Below are positions 6,641 to 15,842 of a DNA stretch of 64,000 nucleotides, piece by piece (the stretch's first letter is position 1; every line of letters starts with the position of its first letter). This DNA comes from a virus. The stretch lies in IMG/VR virus record IMGVR_UViG_3300010354_000057, positions 1 through 64,000 of that record. One strand, given 5' to 3'. The notes below the pieces were generated by a model, which ran no database searches, was not told where the DNA came from, and saw nothing but the letters and a program-made list of their open reading frames with translations. The position numbers and the translations under genes are program-made.

Positions 6641-7357
6641 ATGAAACCTATTGTTAAACTAATTTCTGTTACTCAAGGTGCAGGAGAACTGGCAGGAAAA
6701 TCTGCACAAGAAGTGATTACTTATACTGCGCGTGTAAGTAATCCTAATAACCAACTAAAGTTTGAAACTGCTGCAGGACTTCTTCGGTATTGTATTAAAC
6801 AAAACCATTGGTCTATCTTTGAACAAGCAGATATGACCCTTGAAATTAATACAACTAGAGGACTGGCAGCTCAAGTGCTTCGTCACAGGTCCTTCGTATT
6901 TCAAGAATTTTCACAACGATATGCGGATACAAAACTTTTGACCGAACTTCCTGAAGTTCCTGAACTTCGCAGGCAGGATGAGAAGAACCGTCAGAACTCA
7001 ACTAATGATCTTGATGATCATACCCGAGAAAAGTTTGAGGGAATGATTGAGCAGCACTTTGAGGAAGCACAACGTCTGTATGACAAGATGCTTGAGAAGG
7101 GTGTGGCAAAGGAATGTGCAAGATTTGTACTTCCCTTGGCAACCCCAACAAGAATTTATATGAAAGGCTCTGTAAGGTCATGGATTCATTACATCGATCT
7201 TAGGTCTGCTCACGGCACTCAGAAAGAGCATATGGACATTGCAGAGGCAGCACGATGCGTCTTTATTTGTCAGTTCCCTGATATTGCTAAAGCACTTGGA
7301 TGGGAACCAGAGAATTGTCCAGAATGTTCTGATGCACCTTCTATTACTATCGAATAA
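6641..7357 (+). CDS. thyX: Flavin-dependent thymidylate synthase
   Basis: The ThyX signature RHRxxxxxxxSxR is present as RHRSFVFQEFSQRY at residues 81-94, and the downstream RFVLPLATPTRIYMKGS stretch is also characteristic. The length of 238 residues is normal. ThyX converts dUMP to dTMP using methylene-tetrahydrofolate, FAD and NADPH, supplying thymidine for phage DNA. ThyX replaces the T4-type thymidylate synthase in most cyanophages. Confidence 0.96.
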   Translation: MKPIVKLISVTQGAGELAGKSAQEVITYTARVSNPNNQLKFETAAGLLRYCIKQNHWSIFEQADMTLEINTTRGLAAQVLRHRSFVFQEFSQRYADTKLLTELPEVPELRRQDEKNRQNSTNDLDDHTREKFEGMIEQHFEEAQRLYDKMLEKGVAKECARFVLPLATPTRIYMKGSVRSWIHYIDLRSAHGTQKEHMDIAEAARCVFICQFPDIAKALGWEPENCPECSDAPSITIE

Positions 7358-7383: not shown

Positions 7384-7626
7384 ATGGCAATTTATCCTAT
7401 TATTCATGTTGAGACTGGAGAAAAGAAAGTTATTGAAATGAGTGTCAACGACATTATGCAATGGTATAAAGACAATCCAGAATGGAAAAGAGATTGGTCT
7501 GAAGGATGTGCCTCTGCTGGTGAAGTTGGTGAATGGAAAGATCAATTGATTAAAAAACACCCTGGTTGGAATGAGGTATTGGAAAAAGCATCTAAGGCAC
7601 CAAAGTCACTAGTTAAAAAAATTTAA
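7384..7626 (+). CDS. Conserved cyanophage hypothetical protein, 80 aa
   Basis: Begins MAIYPIIHVETGEKKVIEMS, with a tryptophan-rich middle (WYKDNPEWKRDW) and a C-terminal GWNEVLEKASKAPKSLVKK. The opening strand followed by a small helical unit resembles the scaffold of FmdB-type zinc-ribbon proteins, but the cysteines are absent. It is a familiar cyanophage gene without known function. Its stop codon is immediately followed by the split carbamoyltransferase genes. Confidence 0.65.
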   Translation: MAIYPIIHVETGEKKVIEMSVNDIMQWYKDNPEWKRDWSEGCASAGEVGEWKDQLIKKHPGWNEVLEKASKAPKSLVKKI

Positions 7627-7627
7627 T

Positions 7628-8191
7628 ATGCATGAACTCGTTAAGGTTGGGTATGATGATGTAATTACATTAATTTTAAAACAAAATATTGTAGCATTAT
7701 TTCAAGGAAAGTCTGAAGGTGGACCTAGAGCTTTGGGTAATAGGTCCATATTATTTGATCCAAGAAATTCTGAGGCAAAAAATATTGTTAATACAGTAAA
7801 ACAGAGGGAGTGGTATAGACCTTTTGCTGGAACAATTTTGTTTGAGTATGTTCATGAATGGTTTGATCTACGTGGATTAAAAGAAACTCCTTTTATGATG
7901 TATGCGGTAAATGTTTTAGAAGATAAAAAAGATCTTATTCCTGGAATTATACACGTAGATGGAACGTGCAGAATTCAAACTGTAACTGAAGAACAAAACT
8001 ATCACTATTATAATTTGATAAAATGTTTCTATGAAAAAACTGGAGTTCCAATTTTATTCAACACATCATTCAATCTTGGTGGAGAGACATTAGTTTATAC
8101 TGAAACTGATGGTATTGAAACGTTGCAAAATTCTATGATAGAGTATATGTATCTTCCTGAAAAGAAAAAAATTATAATGGTGAGAAATTAA
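7628..8191 (+). CDS. Carbamoyltransferase C-terminal domain as a separate protein
   Basis: The 187 residues align with the C-terminal third of the full carbamoyltransferase at the left of the window: GGPRALGNRSILFDPR, REWYRPFAG, LIPGIIHVDGTCRIQTV and LFNTSFNLGGETLV. This is the YrdC-like domain that in this family handles carbamoyl-phosphate and forms the carbamoyl-adenylate. It is complete, with its own start one base after the previous stop. Its stop codon abuts the ATG of the gene for the N-terminal domain, so the two parts are encoded in reverse order relative to the usual fusion and presumably assemble as a heterodimer. Confidence 0.85.
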   Translation: MHELVKVGYDDVITLILKQNIVALFQGKSEGGPRALGNRSILFDPRNSEAKNIVNTVKQREWYRPFAGTILFEYVHEWFDLRGLKETPFMMYAVNVLEDKKDLIPGIIHVDGTCRIQTVTEEQNYHYYNLIKCFYEKTGVPILFNTSFNLGGETLVYTETDGIETLQNSMIEYMYLPEKKKIIMVRN

Positions 8192-9277
8192 ATGTATATT
8201 TTGGGAATTAATCTATCACATCACGCTTCTATATGCCTCTTAAAGGATGGTGAAATTGTTTTTTATTTGGAAAATGATCGTTTAAGTAAATTAAAAGAAA
8301 GACAATTTTCTTTAGAAGATGAAATCCTTTGCTTAGAAAAAATATTACCTTATACGAATTATATTGACCATATTGTTTTTGCTTCATTTGGAAAGAATAG
8401 ATATTGTGCTATTCCAGATGAATTGATTATTAATCATATTATACGACACATGAATGTTTATCGTATAGAATATGGTAAAATACATTTTGAATTGGAACAT
8501 CATTTATATCATGCAACTAATGCGTTTTATTCATCTAATTTTGAAGAATCTGCAGCATTAGTTCTTGATGGTGGTGGTGTTACATATAATGATTATATCG
8601 ATCTTCGTGAATCTGAAAGTATGTATTATTTTTCAGGAAGCACATATACTACAATAAAAAAACATTATACTTCCAGAGACATTTATTTTAATGATCTCCC
8701 TGAAAAACATAATGAACAAACTGTGTTTTCTTCTTCATTAAGTTGTGGATGGATTTTTAATACATTATGTCATTTAAATGCTGTAGGTGAACCAGGAAAA
8801 GTGATGGGAATGTCATCATATGGAAATTCTACTGACATTAATTCTGGTGATTGGTTTTCTTATGATGAAGTAACTGATACTTGGTATACAAATAACGAAG
8901 AAATTTTAAAGTGTTATAGAAAGTACTCCATAGATCCTAATGTAGATCCAATGGTTGATGACAGGAAGAATAAATTTGAGTTTGAAAACGCTGCAAATGT
9001 TGCTAAGAAAGCACAAGAAGAAACTAAAGACCACACAATAAGGTTGATAAAACAATTGTTGGGAATGTGTAATACTAAAAATATTGTTTTATCTGGGGGA
9101 TATTTTTTAAATTGTGTTAATAACTATGAGTATTTGAAAGAATTTCCAGATGTAAATTTTTATGTGGATCCCATTTCTCATGATGGGGGAATTGCAATAG
9201 GAGCAGCAAAACATTTGTGGCATTGTGTGATGGGTAATCGTGAACGATACTCACTTAAAACATTATACCTTGGTTAA
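8192..9277 (+). CDS. Carbamoyltransferase N-terminal domain as a separate protein
   Basis: The 361 residues match the N-terminal, ASKHA-fold half of NodU/CmcH enzymes: MYILGINLSHHASICLLKDG, LEHHLYHATNAFYSS, GEPGKVMGMSSYGN and ISHDGGIAIGAAKH. It stops just where the C-terminal domain would begin in a fused enzyme; that domain is encoded immediately upstream. The ATG directly follows the upstream stop codon, giving tight co-translation. Together the two genes should make one active carbamoyltransferase of unknown substrate. A late-type motif for phoH follows the stop codon. Confidence 0.85.
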   Translation: MYILGINLSHHASICLLKDGEIVFYLENDRLSKLKERQFSLEDEILCLEKILPYTNYIDHIVFASFGKNRYCAIPDELIINHIIRHMNVYRIEYGKIHFELEHHLYHATNAFYSSNFEESAALVLDGGGVTYNDYIDLRESESMYYFSGSTYTTIKKHYTSRDIYFNDLPEKHNEQTVFSSSLSCGWIFNTLCHLNAVGEPGKVMGMSSYGNSTDINSGDWFSYDEVTDTWYTNNEEILKCYRKYSIDPNVDPMVDDRKNKFEFENAANVAKKAQEETKDHTIRLIKQLLGMCNTKNIVLSGGYFLNCVNNYEYLKEFPDVNFYVDPISHDGGIAIGAAKHLWHCVMGNRERYSLKTLYLG

Positions 9278-9303: not shown

Positions 9304-10059
9304 ATGGCAAGAAAAAGAAGAAATCCAGATCAACCAATTGGTGTTGGTATGACTACTAAGCAAATGAAAAGGAAAAAACCAATCAATTGGGATTTACTTT
9401 TAGACATTGATCCCCTTACTGATAATCAAAAGAAATTATTTGAATCATATGATGAAGGCAAAAATTTAGTTGCTTATGGTGCTGCGGGAACTGGAAAAAC
9501 TTTTATTACTTTATATAATGCTTTAAGAGATGTTTTAGATGAAAACTCTCCTTATGAAAAAATTTATATTGTAAGGTCTCTCGTTGCAACGAGAGAGATT
9601 GGGTTCCTTCCTGGAGATCATGAAGATAAGTCTTCTCTTTATCAAATTCCTTATAAGAACATGGTTAAGTACATGTTCCAAATGCCAACGGATGCAGACT
9701 TTGAAATGCTTTACGGTAATTTGAAAACTCAAGGTACAGTTAGTTTTTGGTCTACGTCATTTATTCGTGGTACAACTTTAGATAAAGCAATTATTATCGT
9801 TGATGAATTTCAAAACTTGAATTTTCATGAACTTGATAGTATAATTACTCGTGTGGGTGAAGATACCAAAATTTGTTTCTGTGGTGATGCTACTCAGTCT
9901 GATCTTGTAAAAACAAATGAAAGAAATGGAATTATTGACTTCTTAAAAATTTTAAGAGTTATGCCTTCTTTTGATCTTATTGAATTTGGTGTCGAGGATA
10001 TCGTCCGTTCTGGTCTCTGTAAAGAGTATATTATTGCTAAAACACAATTGGGACTTTAA
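9304..10059 (+). CDS. phoH: PhoH-like ATPase
   Basis: A Walker A motif GAAGTGKT lies at residues 59-66 and a Walker B/DEFQN motif (IIIVDEFQNL) near residue 165, followed by CGDATQSDL. This order and the 251-residue length fit phage PhoH proteins, which are related to the helicase-like P-loop ATPases. The gene is almost universal in marine phages; its biochemical role is unsettled, with links to phosphate stress and RNA metabolism proposed. The stop codon abuts the ATG of the next gene. Confidence 0.93.
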   Translation: MARKRRNPDQPIGVGMTTKQMKRKKPINWDLLLDIDPLTDNQKKLFESYDEGKNLVAYGAAGTGKTFITLYNALRDVLDENSPYEKIYIVRSLVATREIGFLPGDHEDKSSLYQIPYKNMVKYMFQMPTDADFEMLYGNLKTQGTVSFWSTSFIRGTTLDKAIIIVDEFQNLNFHELDSIITRVGEDTKICFCGDATQSDLVKTNERNGIIDFLKILRVMPSFDLIEFGVEDIVRSGLCKEYIIAKTQLGL

Positions 10060-13499: not shown

Positions 13500-15842
13500 T
13501 TATTCATAAAATCTAGGGTTATCACCTTTCTTTAAGGTTCTGGACACGTATTGTTCAGAACCTTCTTTGTATGACATTAATTTTTCTATGTCATCAAATA
13601 TAATATTTAAGTACCTTGGTTTGAGTAAATAAATTTGTCTTTTTTTATTTTCTATCTTCAATTCATATTCATAGTTTGTTATTGGAATAGAACAATCGTA
13701 ACCTGGTATTTCTACATCTATACCTAATCCATTATCTCTGTATATTATTCCCTTTGTTACTTTTTTGTACCAATTAAATCCATTAAATCTCCATTTTGTC
13801 CCTTTACTTTCATAGATTTCTCCAACTTGAGGTTCGTAAATATTCCCAGGGGGGCCTATTGATACTGATGGTTGAGATGTGTATCCACTTCCTTTTTCAG
13901 TAATAACAATTTGTTCTATTCCTCCTTGGAAAATCTTTGCATATCCTTCTGCTTTAATTGGAGTTGGTGGACTTGAAAATACAATAATTGGATTAGATCT
14001 GTAGTTATAACCAGGATCTGTAACTACAACTTCAGATACCTCTCCATTGTTTACTACTGCATATCCAACTGCTGTTCTTGCTGGGATTGGTGGTTGTATT
14101 GTGACTGTCGGTGGGGATGCATATCCCCCTCCAGGATTTGTAACTACTATTTGTACAATTCTTTCAGATCCTATGACAGCATATCCTCTTGCAGTTAAAT
14201 CGATGTTATAATTATATACTTTTCTATTTTGTGCTCCAGAAATAAACAGTCTTGTTTTATCCGAATTTATATAAAGATCTGTTATTGCATTATCTTGTGT
14301 TGAAGCATTTAATTGTGTTACTAGAGTAGCACTACTTACTGTCCATGGAGATGTCAAATTAAAAACATATGCTTTGTCAGTTGTGTTACCTGCTGCATAT
14401 AATTGAGTTCCATCATCACTAAATGAAAATCCTAGAAACCAATCTTCTCCAGTTAAACTGAATAAGTTTACAACATCAACTTCTACGGCAGATTTGGTTG
14501 CAATGTTCCATGCAGTACTCAACGAATACTTTCTTATAGAATCTGGATTATTTGCATCCAAGATAAACATAAATTTTCCATTGTCCTGAAGTCTTATTCC
14601 TGATGGTGCAGGAACAGAAACACTAGTTACAAAAGTTGCTGTACTAATATTCCATGCAGTTGATAAATTGTATGATGCTACTCTATATCCAGATGCGGTT
14701 AATCCAGAAACATACATTACTCTACCATCTGGTTTAAATTCAACACCAGTAGCATATGTAAAGTTTATTCCTGTAGTTAATGTGTACGATCTTACAAAAG
14801 TTCCTGATGTAATATCCCATGGAGTAGACAAACTATACTGTTCTATTTTTCCTTGAGTATATCCTAGATCTCCATGTGCGGTGAATAAGTAAGAACCATC
14901 AGCGGAAACGTACATTCCTTCTAAACCCTCGCCAGTTGTGAATGATGATTGATTTAAGAATGCTGCATTCCCTACAATATTTTCTGGTGTTGAAAATGTA
15001 ACTGTTGGTACAAACGTATATCCTGCTCCACCACTTTGGATACCAACACTGGTGACTGATCCACCTATTCCTATAACAGCATTTACAACTGGTGGAACTG
15101 TTGGTGGTGGATTTGAAAATGTAACCGTTGGTTGTGCAGTATATCCTTTGCCTTTATTTGTAATTGTAATTATTCCTACTTCTCTTTCTCCTGGAATTAT
15201 AGATAAGTTTGCTATTGCTGTAGCAGTAACTACTTGATCTGGATTTGAGAAATTAACTCCTGGTGCAATTGTGTAACCAGTTCCAACTTCATTTATTGTT
15301 ACTGATAGGATTTGTGTATTTGAAACTGTAACAGTTCCCGTTGCATTTTTTCCAGGTATTGGTTTTGGTAGGACCACATTGGTATTAGGTTCTACCAAAT
15401 ATTGTGGGGCATTATAAAAAAGTTCATCAACTATTAGTCCAGGTTTTACAATAGTTACTTTATCTGTTGACTTATATTCTATTGTTTCGTAGTGATGTAT
15501 TCCATTATATAAGTTATCATATGATCCATATTTTGAAAGTAAATATTTGTCTAGTTGATCCTGTGATTTCGGCCATTCATCATACACATTCATGATATTA
15601 TTTGACATTAAAACAACCCAATCTAAATTTTCATCTCCATAAAATTCGTAAGCAACATTATCAGGTCTATCGTCACCAACAATATTGTATTTTTCAAAGA
15701 ACGATATATTATTAAAAATGTCCTCTCTTACCTTTGCTCTCAAAAATAAGTTTTTTACTTCAATGTAATCATTAGTAGAACGATTATCTTTTAATCTACT
15801 TACGTAGTCTAAATTTGGAACTTTTGAAAAATAGTTTGACAT
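13500..15842 (-). CDS. 53: Baseplate wedge protein gp53 with large inserted domains
   Basis: Residues 1-150 (SNYFSKVPNLDYVSRL, NISFFEKYNIVGDDRPDNVA, YGDENLDWVVLMSNNI) and the last ~100 residues (ISxxYEYELKIENKKRQIYL, then ILRTLKKGDNPRF-like end) follow T4 gp53. T4 gp53 has 196 residues; this protein has 780. The extra ~530 residues consist of several GxGYxxxPxVxFSxP beta repeats, then a beta-propeller-like stretch of about five blades ending LSTAWNI or similar (residues ~295-545), then more GxGY repeats. The inserted parts are probably exposed on the baseplate. It is the last gene of the minus-strand operon starting at gp4. Confidence 0.85.
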   Translation of the reverse strand: MSNYFSKVPNLDYVSRLKDNRSTNDYIEVKNLFLRAKVREDIFNNISFFEKYNIVGDDRPDNVAYEFYGDENLDWVVLMSNNIMNVYDEWPKSQDQLDKYLLSKYGSYDNLYNGIHHYETIEYKSTDKVTIVKPGLIVDELFYNAPQYLVEPNTNVVLPKPIPGKNATGTVTVSNTQILSVTINEVGTGYTIAPGVNFSNPDQVVTATAIANLSIIPGEREVGIITITNKGKGYTAQPTVTFSNPPPTVPPVVNAVIGIGGSVTSVGIQSGGAGYTFVPTVTFSTPENIVGNAAFLNQSSFTTGEGLEGMYVSADGSYLFTAHGDLGYTQGKIEQYSLSTPWDITSGTFVRSYTLTTGINFTYATGVEFKPDGRVMYVSGLTASGYRVASYNLSTAWNISTATFVTSVSVPAPSGIRLQDNGKFMFILDANNPDSIRKYSLSTAWNIATKSAVEVDVVNLFSLTGEDWFLGFSFSDDGTQLYAAGNTTDKAYVFNLTSPWTVSSATLVTQLNASTQDNAITDLYINSDKTRLFISGAQNRKVYNYNIDLTARGYAVIGSERIVQIVVTNPGGGYASPPTVTIQPPIPARTAVGYAVVNNGEVSEVVVTDPGYNYRSNPIIVFSSPPTPIKAEGYAKIFQGGIEQIVITEKGSGYTSQPSVSIGPPGNIYEPQVGEIYESKGTKWRFNGFNWYKKVTKGIIYRDNGLGIDVEIPGYDCSIPITNYEYELKIENKKRQIYLLKPRYLNIIFDDIEKLMSYKEGSEQYVSRTLKKGDNPRFYE

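Follow-up and report, generated by a model that had tools for sequence, protein, structure and literature searches.

A split TobZ/NodU-type carbamoyltransferase gene pair in reversed order, recurrent in ocean viruses of cyanobacteria

From the perspective of enzyme architecture, the viral DNA analyzed here carries an unusual arrangement: the two domains of a TobZ/NodU-type O-carbamoyltransferase are encoded by two separate, abutting genes, and the gene for the domain that normally ends the protein comes first. The reversed, tightly linked pair is shared by many marine cyanophages; it is not an isolated case, nor is it a relic. What is new is this conserved two-gene form, when TobZ-type enzymes, HypF, and TsaC/TsaD are already known. 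Judging from conserved residues, junctions, and copy number, we consider it likely that the two products would be the halves of one working TobZ/NodU-type O-carbamoyltransferase, acting as separate subunits. Hereafter, C and N denote the genes or domains of the YrdC-like and Kae1/ASKHA-like types, respectively, and NC the fused form in canonical order. The window, that is, the whole stretch of 64,000 nucleotides that was analyzed, is part of a virus record of 88,108 bases, whose relatives in a search of the phage collection are cyanophages. Its features of interest are the following:

379–1965, + strand: fused NC carbamoyltransferase in canonical order, a paralog (528 aa from the TTG, 526 aa from the ATG at 385)
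6641–7357, + strand: thyX (Thy1, PF02511), left border of the conserved site (domain match and synteny)
7384–7626, + strand: small phrog_385 transcriptional-regulator-like gene, belonging to the conserved site (PHROGs and synteny)
7628–8191, + strand: C gene, ATG start, 187 aa, stop TAA at 8189–8191; stand-alone YrdC-like (Carbam_trans_C, PF16861) subunit
8189–8194, + strand: junction, the TAA of the C gene followed at once by the ATG of the N gene, in one frame
8192–9277, + strand: N gene, ATG start, 361 aa; stand-alone Kae1/ASKHA-like (Carbam_trans_N, PF02543) subunit
9304–10059, + strand: phoH (PF02562), right border of the conserved site (domain match and synteny)

The two genes and their known relatives

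In Pfam, the sole match of the C gene is PF16861 (190.3 bits for a cut-off of 27), which spans residues 15–177 and profile positions 3–164 of 170, and the sole match of the N gene above cut-off is PF02543 (67.6 bits for a cut-off of 24, residues 101–339). Among the PHROGs families, the best match of C is phrog_20469, and it also matches positions 355–525 of phrog_1601, the last third of that family, of which N matches positions 1–330. The PDB relatives of C are VtdB, NovN, GdmN, and TobZ, and N is related to TobZ with an E value of 2.4e-12. A sequence-only reading of this DNA had proposed that the C-terminal and N-terminal domains form separate genes in reversed order, with the stop codon abutting the next ATG, and the open reading frames, Pfam, and PHROGs all confirm it; the normal fused enzyme that it placed at 385–1965 is also real, starting at the ATG at 385 or at the TTG at 379. 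Because it consists of two genes, C then N, instead of one N-then-C chain, the pair is a variant of the TobZ/NodU-type O-carbamoyltransferases rather than a plain member. Its C product is predicted to be the carbamoyl-adenylate synthetase half and its N product the carbamoyl-transfer half.

Several known systems resemble the pair in part. TobZ, GdmN, VtdB, and NovN (NodU/CmcH family) have the same two domains (PF16861 and PF02543), aligned key residues, and folds, but they are single chains in which the Kae1-like domain comes first and the YrdC-like domain second, whereas the window has two genes with the YrdC-like one first. HypF likewise has its YrdC-like domain ahead of the Kae1-like one (order as given in PMC9654439); however, it is one chain that also includes acylphosphatase and zinc-finger domains, which the window genes do not have, the 187-aa C product matching PF16861 alone in Pfam at E 0.01 with no acylphosphatase or zinc-finger domain. 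The window sequences moreover belong to the TobZ family, N scoring 19.9 bits against HypF_C_2, under its cut-off of 27. In the t6A tRNA pathway, TsaC/Sua5 and TsaD/Kae1 place YrdC-like and Kae1-like activities on separate polypeptides, with an adenylate handed over from one to the other (PMC9654439). They differ from the window pair in family and in substrate. TsaC uses threonine and bicarbonate. As for phages, the 5-hydroxymethylcytosine carbamoyltransferase of Yang et al. (2021, PMC8670742) also comes from environmental phage DNA, on a contig with a thymidylate synthase homolog, but a single ORF encodes it (product of 63 kDa), and the homolog on its contig is of the ThyA type (PF00303), whereas the neighbor in the window is thyX (PF02511). 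With regard to the 5-hydroxymethylcytosine role that a thymidylate synthase neighbor suggests, no match to the ThyA-type PF00303 was found in the 88 kb record, which is possibly a fragment. Lastly, phrog_20469 and phrog_1601 are both labeled “Nol-like carbamoyltransferase”; phrog_20469 already has the length of a C domain (181 positions), but the library entries are silent on pairing, order, arrays, and two subunits.

The model of the fused window enzyme (pTM 0.81) matches TobZ with a TMq of 0.80. The C-Q-N chain that read-through of the stop would give was modeled with AlphaFold as a stand-in for the complex (25 alignment rows). The domains of this model are good (pLDDT 84.6), but its pTM of 0.68 is lower than the 0.81 of the fused enzyme, so that docking of C and N finds no support in it. 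Its N part (residues 188–547) aligns to TobZ 0–364 with a Z of 28.4 and an rmsd of 3.4 over 316 aligned residues, when the whole chain aligns to HypF with an rmsd of 22 over 442 residues; Foldseek and VIA-align work in sequence order, the N part dominated the matches of the read-through model, and the reversed order lies beyond the reach of both programs.

The virus record holds a third carbamoyltransferase just beyond the window, a fused NC at about 64130–65539 with an open frame of 481 residues, which sits on a very long branch in both the C and the N tree. Elsewhere in the window, a 238-aa protein lies directly 3′ of the fused carbamoyltransferase (1971–2687; no Pfam or PHROGs match at E 0.01), and a 780-aa protein (13500–15842, − strand) matches phrog_232 (baseplate wedge) over its first 146 residues and several virion protein families in its middle.

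Spread, site, and junctions of the reversed pair

A tblastn search of the phage collection recovered the C-before-N order in S-RIM44, S-SCSM1, Sf-FP1, Sf-CH3, and the single-cell contig AG-345-D19, and the same order is found in IMG/VR contigs. In the three annotated phage regions that were inspected, C and N are deposited as separate CDSs; for the N of S-RIM44, homology supports a start 25 codons upstream of the deposited one (L001, 5019–5093). S-SCSM1 carries a run of four genes (C N C N) plus one fused copy elsewhere in its genome, and many other cyanophages have the normal fused form only. The IMG/VR scans retained the best 80 of 555 and the best 80 of 597 confirmed relatives, and ORFs were classed as C, N, or NC with profiles built from the relatives of the window, so that the sample is close to the query and its counts are not population frequencies. 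In this query-near sample, 184 runs collapsed into 142 clusters at 95% identity, 34 of them touching contig ends and 108 having both flanks. The latter comprise 56 NC, 18 C N, 8 C N C N, 7 lone N, 7 NC N, 4 C N C N N, 4 NC NC, 3 N C, and 1 C N N C N. A fusion of C and N, in that order, within one ORF was found at none of the 179 window, phage, and viral-contig loci, a tally of the same query-near kind and without deduplication.

Outside viruses, the scan of bacterial and archaeal contigs was limited to the best 80 of 580, of which 65 loci are a single fused NC, five have a C match only, and eight are other NC mixtures; the C N pair alone occurs at no locus among these best 80 of 580. Other arrangements were met along the way. 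The bacterium Paenibacillus pinihumi has three separate carbamoyltransferase genes, N, C, and N (L194, 2793–5543), and one further locus of the bacterial and archaeal set has N then C in overlapping ORFs (L211). In another phage group (L096, L097, L098, and L100), N precedes C, as is canonical, but the two are separate genes; they occupy a different site, beside what look by eye like genes for a clamp loader and Hsp20. In S-SSM7 (L006, 3253–6628), a fused NC is followed by a 2OG-Fe(II) oxygenase gene and then by a separate N.

Among the openly available papers found in literature searches, a scope that most subscription journals fall outside, no title or abstract beginning mentions a split or two-gene TobZ-type carbamoyltransferase, and the word “carbamoyl” is absent from the main text of the S-SCSM1 paper (PMC9602691). 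A cyanophage “carbamoyltransferase” is named as an accessory gene in PMC3037559, and phage “carbamoyltransferases” are read as the pyrimidine-pathway (aspartate) enzyme in PMC9146016 (S-SZBM1) and PMC10436341 (phage MS29). In our analysis, the S-MS29 matches are of the TobZ type; the split-pair finding bears on the pyrimidine-pathway reading of these two papers, the TobZ-type matches concerning MS29.

The pair occupies one site, which reads thyX, one or more C N units, the phrog_385 gene, and phoH, or has the phrog_385 gene ahead of the pair, as in the window. With the site defined by gene clustering and a marker search over flanks of a few kb, and with loci not deduplicated, at least one site marker is present at 39 of the 42 C N loci (the exceptions being L063, L145, and L053), at all C N C N (18/18), C N C N N (8/8), and lone-N (19/19) loci, at 4 of the 10 NC N loci, and at none of the 67 loci with only a fused NC. 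The C N pair is cargo at this fixed place: in S-WAM1 and SynMITS9220M01, thyX, one or two small genes, and phoH lie together without C and N. In ACG-2014d, three hypothetical genes (705, 231, and 255 bases, in this order) separate thyX from phoH. Since the site also occurs without the pair in S-WAM1 and SynMITS9220M01, nearness to thyX is weak evidence of function. At one C N locus (L005, 5896–6687), the pair is separated from the phrog_385 gene by a radical-SAM gene. A nucleotide-sugar dehydratase-like gene adjoins 6 of 13 array loci (named as such in two) and a tryptophan halogenase lies near the C N locus L058; the window pair has neither kind of neighbor. These genes hint at sugars or small molecules as acceptors.

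The shared frame of the window genes (564 nt, or 188 codons, from C to N), with a single TAA between them, is what would be seen if stop read-through or a sequencing error masked a true, circularly permuted C–N fusion. Such a fusion is nonetheless extremely improbable. The junctions were counted as distinct by the last 100 residues of C, with start codons picked by rule, and all 68 of them, in this query-near sample, fall between −17 and +4 nt; the commonest is a 4-nt overlap (19/68), 16 others overlap by 11–17 nt, and 60 of the 68 are in another frame. Several of the eight in-frame junctions carry a double stop, TAATAA, and the sampled 179 loci hold no such fusion. Shine–Dalgarno-like motifs lie upstream of the N start in 17 of 38 cases and of the C start in 3 of 38. 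On account of the overlaps, the other frames, and the double stops, we regard the pair as two tightly linked genes, not as one gene with a stray stop. A frameshift was given low weight as a reading of the window pair; the sequence-only reading had also dismissed it in view of the own starts and stops of both genes, with which the ORFs and the conserved separate junctions of relatives agree.

Evidence for two halves of one enzyme

Catalytic residues were checked in alignments of 93 C and 114 N domains, built as smaller sets in which rows with just one domain aligned with the matching part. H103, H104, H107, D126, and D331 are kept in all 56 separate N domains aligned (48 from C-before-N loci and 8 after a fused NC) and in all six lone N, and K58, R60, T146, S147, and N149 in all 43 separate C domains aligned. 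Slight variation is seen at other conserved positions, namely H10 and K203 of N (54/56 each) and P33 of C (38/43). By alignment column, the iron ligands of N are H103, H107, D126, and D331, with H104 as a neighbor; this H, H, D, D set is as described for GdmN (PMC9633730), and the KxR…SxN and HxxH…D motifs are as in PMC9654439. The window residues align with those of TobZ, VtdB, and NovN at the H, H, D, D and at the K-R and NTSFN positions. At split loci, dN/dS is 0.05–0.13 for C (six pairs) and 0.06–0.42 for N (six pairs), the value for the window N against that of L007 being 0.14.

Copy number also indicates that the halves belong together. S-RIM44 (197,450 bases) and Sf-FP1 (199,985 bases), both deposited as complete, have exactly one C and one N match each, and family searches of these two genomes found no fused TobZ-type copy; similarly, one array record of 153.8 kb (G013) gave two C and two N matches, again without a fused one. 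With no TobZ-type copy found in S-RIM44 and Sf-FP1 besides the split pair, their enzyme, if it works at all, works as separate proteins, and the halves are most likely one two-subunit enzyme. Evolutionary distances point the same way: those of C and N correlate over 26 loci with r 0.72 (partial r 0.61), compared with 0.34 for C and thyX, 0.47 for C and phoH, 0.52 for N and thyX, and 0.64 for N and phoH, which is support, not proof, of contact, because shared history inflates such figures.

Split genes are not sole copies everywhere, given the two fused paralogs in the record of the window and the fused copy beside the S-SCSM1 array. One could therefore suppose that the pair is what is left of a fused enzyme and is decaying, its job being done by the fused paralogs, all the more so as C is absent beside N in some relatives. 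The sequence-only reading had itself named full-length cognates elsewhere as what would make the two genes relics. The record of the window does carry such copies, but for the family as a whole this does not hold, no TobZ-type copy besides the split pair having been found in two complete genomes. Since both genes are, in addition, intact, under purifying selection, and unchanged at their catalytic residues, and since 13 array loci retain two C and two or three N genes, we hold decay to be very improbable, and the reading of C and N as the halves of a working enzyme is the one that we retain.

By analogy with TobZ and GdmN, the C product would make carbamoyl-adenylate from carbamoyl phosphate and ATP, and the N product, as an iron-binding Kae1-like protein, would transfer the carbamoyl group to the hydroxyl of an acceptor. 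The abutting or overlapping genes are expected to yield both halves together, and this co-production would let C pass the labile intermediate on to N within a heterodimer or a transient complex.

Arrays, lone N genes, and the origin of the order

A different picture of the partnership is that C would be a diffusible or loosely bound carbamoyl-adenylate synthetase serving several N in one cell, much as TsaC does with TsaD, with lone N relying on the C domain of a fused paralog. N outnumbers C in five clusters of the survey (the four C N C N N and the single C N N C N, of 108 two-flank clusters), and an NC followed by a separate N accounts for 7 of the same 108. Five of the seven lone-N records searched have another C domain, in fused or edge-cut genes, and the two without one are short (8.4 and 28.2 kb). 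Lone N also keep their catalytic residues, with a dN/dS of 0.07–0.26 (four pairs), and N is less conserved than C, eight relatives having 50–71% identity to the window C and 28–49% to the window N. Against this, lone N may have taken on a different role, and both TobZ and HypF move the labile carbamoyl-adenylate within a single protein, by way of a channel that joins two of its domains (PMC9654439). The arrays do not discriminate: C1, C2, N1, and N2 of the 13 arrays co-vary about equally (r 0.92–0.94), which favors neither specific nor shared partners. We thus view a shared donor as possible but doubtful, and two halves of one enzyme as the likelier arrangement.

The sequence-only reading had spoken of an obligate heterodimer. 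That the products are most likely two halves of one enzyme is borne out by the junctions, the catalytic residues, and the sole copy in two complete genomes; “obligate,” however, goes too far, because lone N persists at the same site and arrays hold more N than C. Since lone N genes persist under purifying selection, N need not have its own C in cis. At lone-N loci among the close relatives of the window, the N start follows the phrog_385 gene at 2 nt, the position taken by C in the intact C N locus L039, and no remnant of C is left at the lone-N loci. In the N trees, L039 sits among these lone-N loci (starred support), a placement that reads as two putative losses of C, when a single origin of the lone-N state is not rejected by the AU test (p 0.09).

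Within the 13 arrays, median identity is 48% between C1 and C2 and 27% between N1 and N2, and C1, C2, N1, and N2/N3 form separate clades (supports 85, 88, 98, and 100). The grouping of N2/N3 with the N genes that follow a fused NC has a support of 80 in the first tree and 58/9 in the careful tree.

These trees also bear on how the reversed order arose. They were built from 82 hand-picked loci (30 split, 24 fused, 6 lone N, 3 canonical split, and 19 bacterial or archaeal), from which rows with a domain score of at least 40 and a length above 130 (C) or 240 (N) residues were kept, that is, 93 C and 114 N rows; the careful N tree was limited to 35 of these N rows, the fused N of the window not being among them. 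A fused NC followed by a separate N occurs at the same site in L146, L147, L172, and L175. The C of the C N locus L005, at this very site, is sister to the C of L146 (support 97), and the N of L005 is sister to the second N of L146 (support 100, and 100/100 in the careful tree), the first N of L146 being placed with weak support (87 in the first tree, 81/87 in the careful one). Because of these two sister relationships, C N corresponds to the last two modules of NC N. Loss or gain of the first N would connect the two forms, and either direction fits.

An alternative history, put forward in the sequence-only reading, is that of a fused, circularly permuted C–N gene that later split, and gene order taken alone is what such a history would leave. 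No fused C–N gene is found in the sample of 179 loci, though, when NC N exists at the same site, the C and second N of NC N in L146 are sister to a split pair, and junctions differ in frame and overlap between loci. A permuted ancestor is thus unsupported and in our estimation improbable, and an NC N that lost its first N fits better: the C-before-N order would most likely stem from tandem modules at the thyX–phoH site, by passage from NC N to C N.

On a more tentative note, the pair and its arrays may belong to a modular system, in which one or two stand-alone C would feed changeable, acceptor-specific N, any gain of N in the thyX–phoH array would bring a new specificity, and N might use the C domain of another enzyme of its genome; this is a conjecture that we ourselves rate as rather unlikely. 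If it were true, new carbamoylation specificities would arise by the addition of N genes between thyX and phoH. Overall, a natural, conserved split with reversed order is a ready system in which to ask whether the intermediate can be handed over without a covalent link between the domains, and arrays in which acceptor subunits outnumber donor subunits make it possible to follow the growth of a substrate range.
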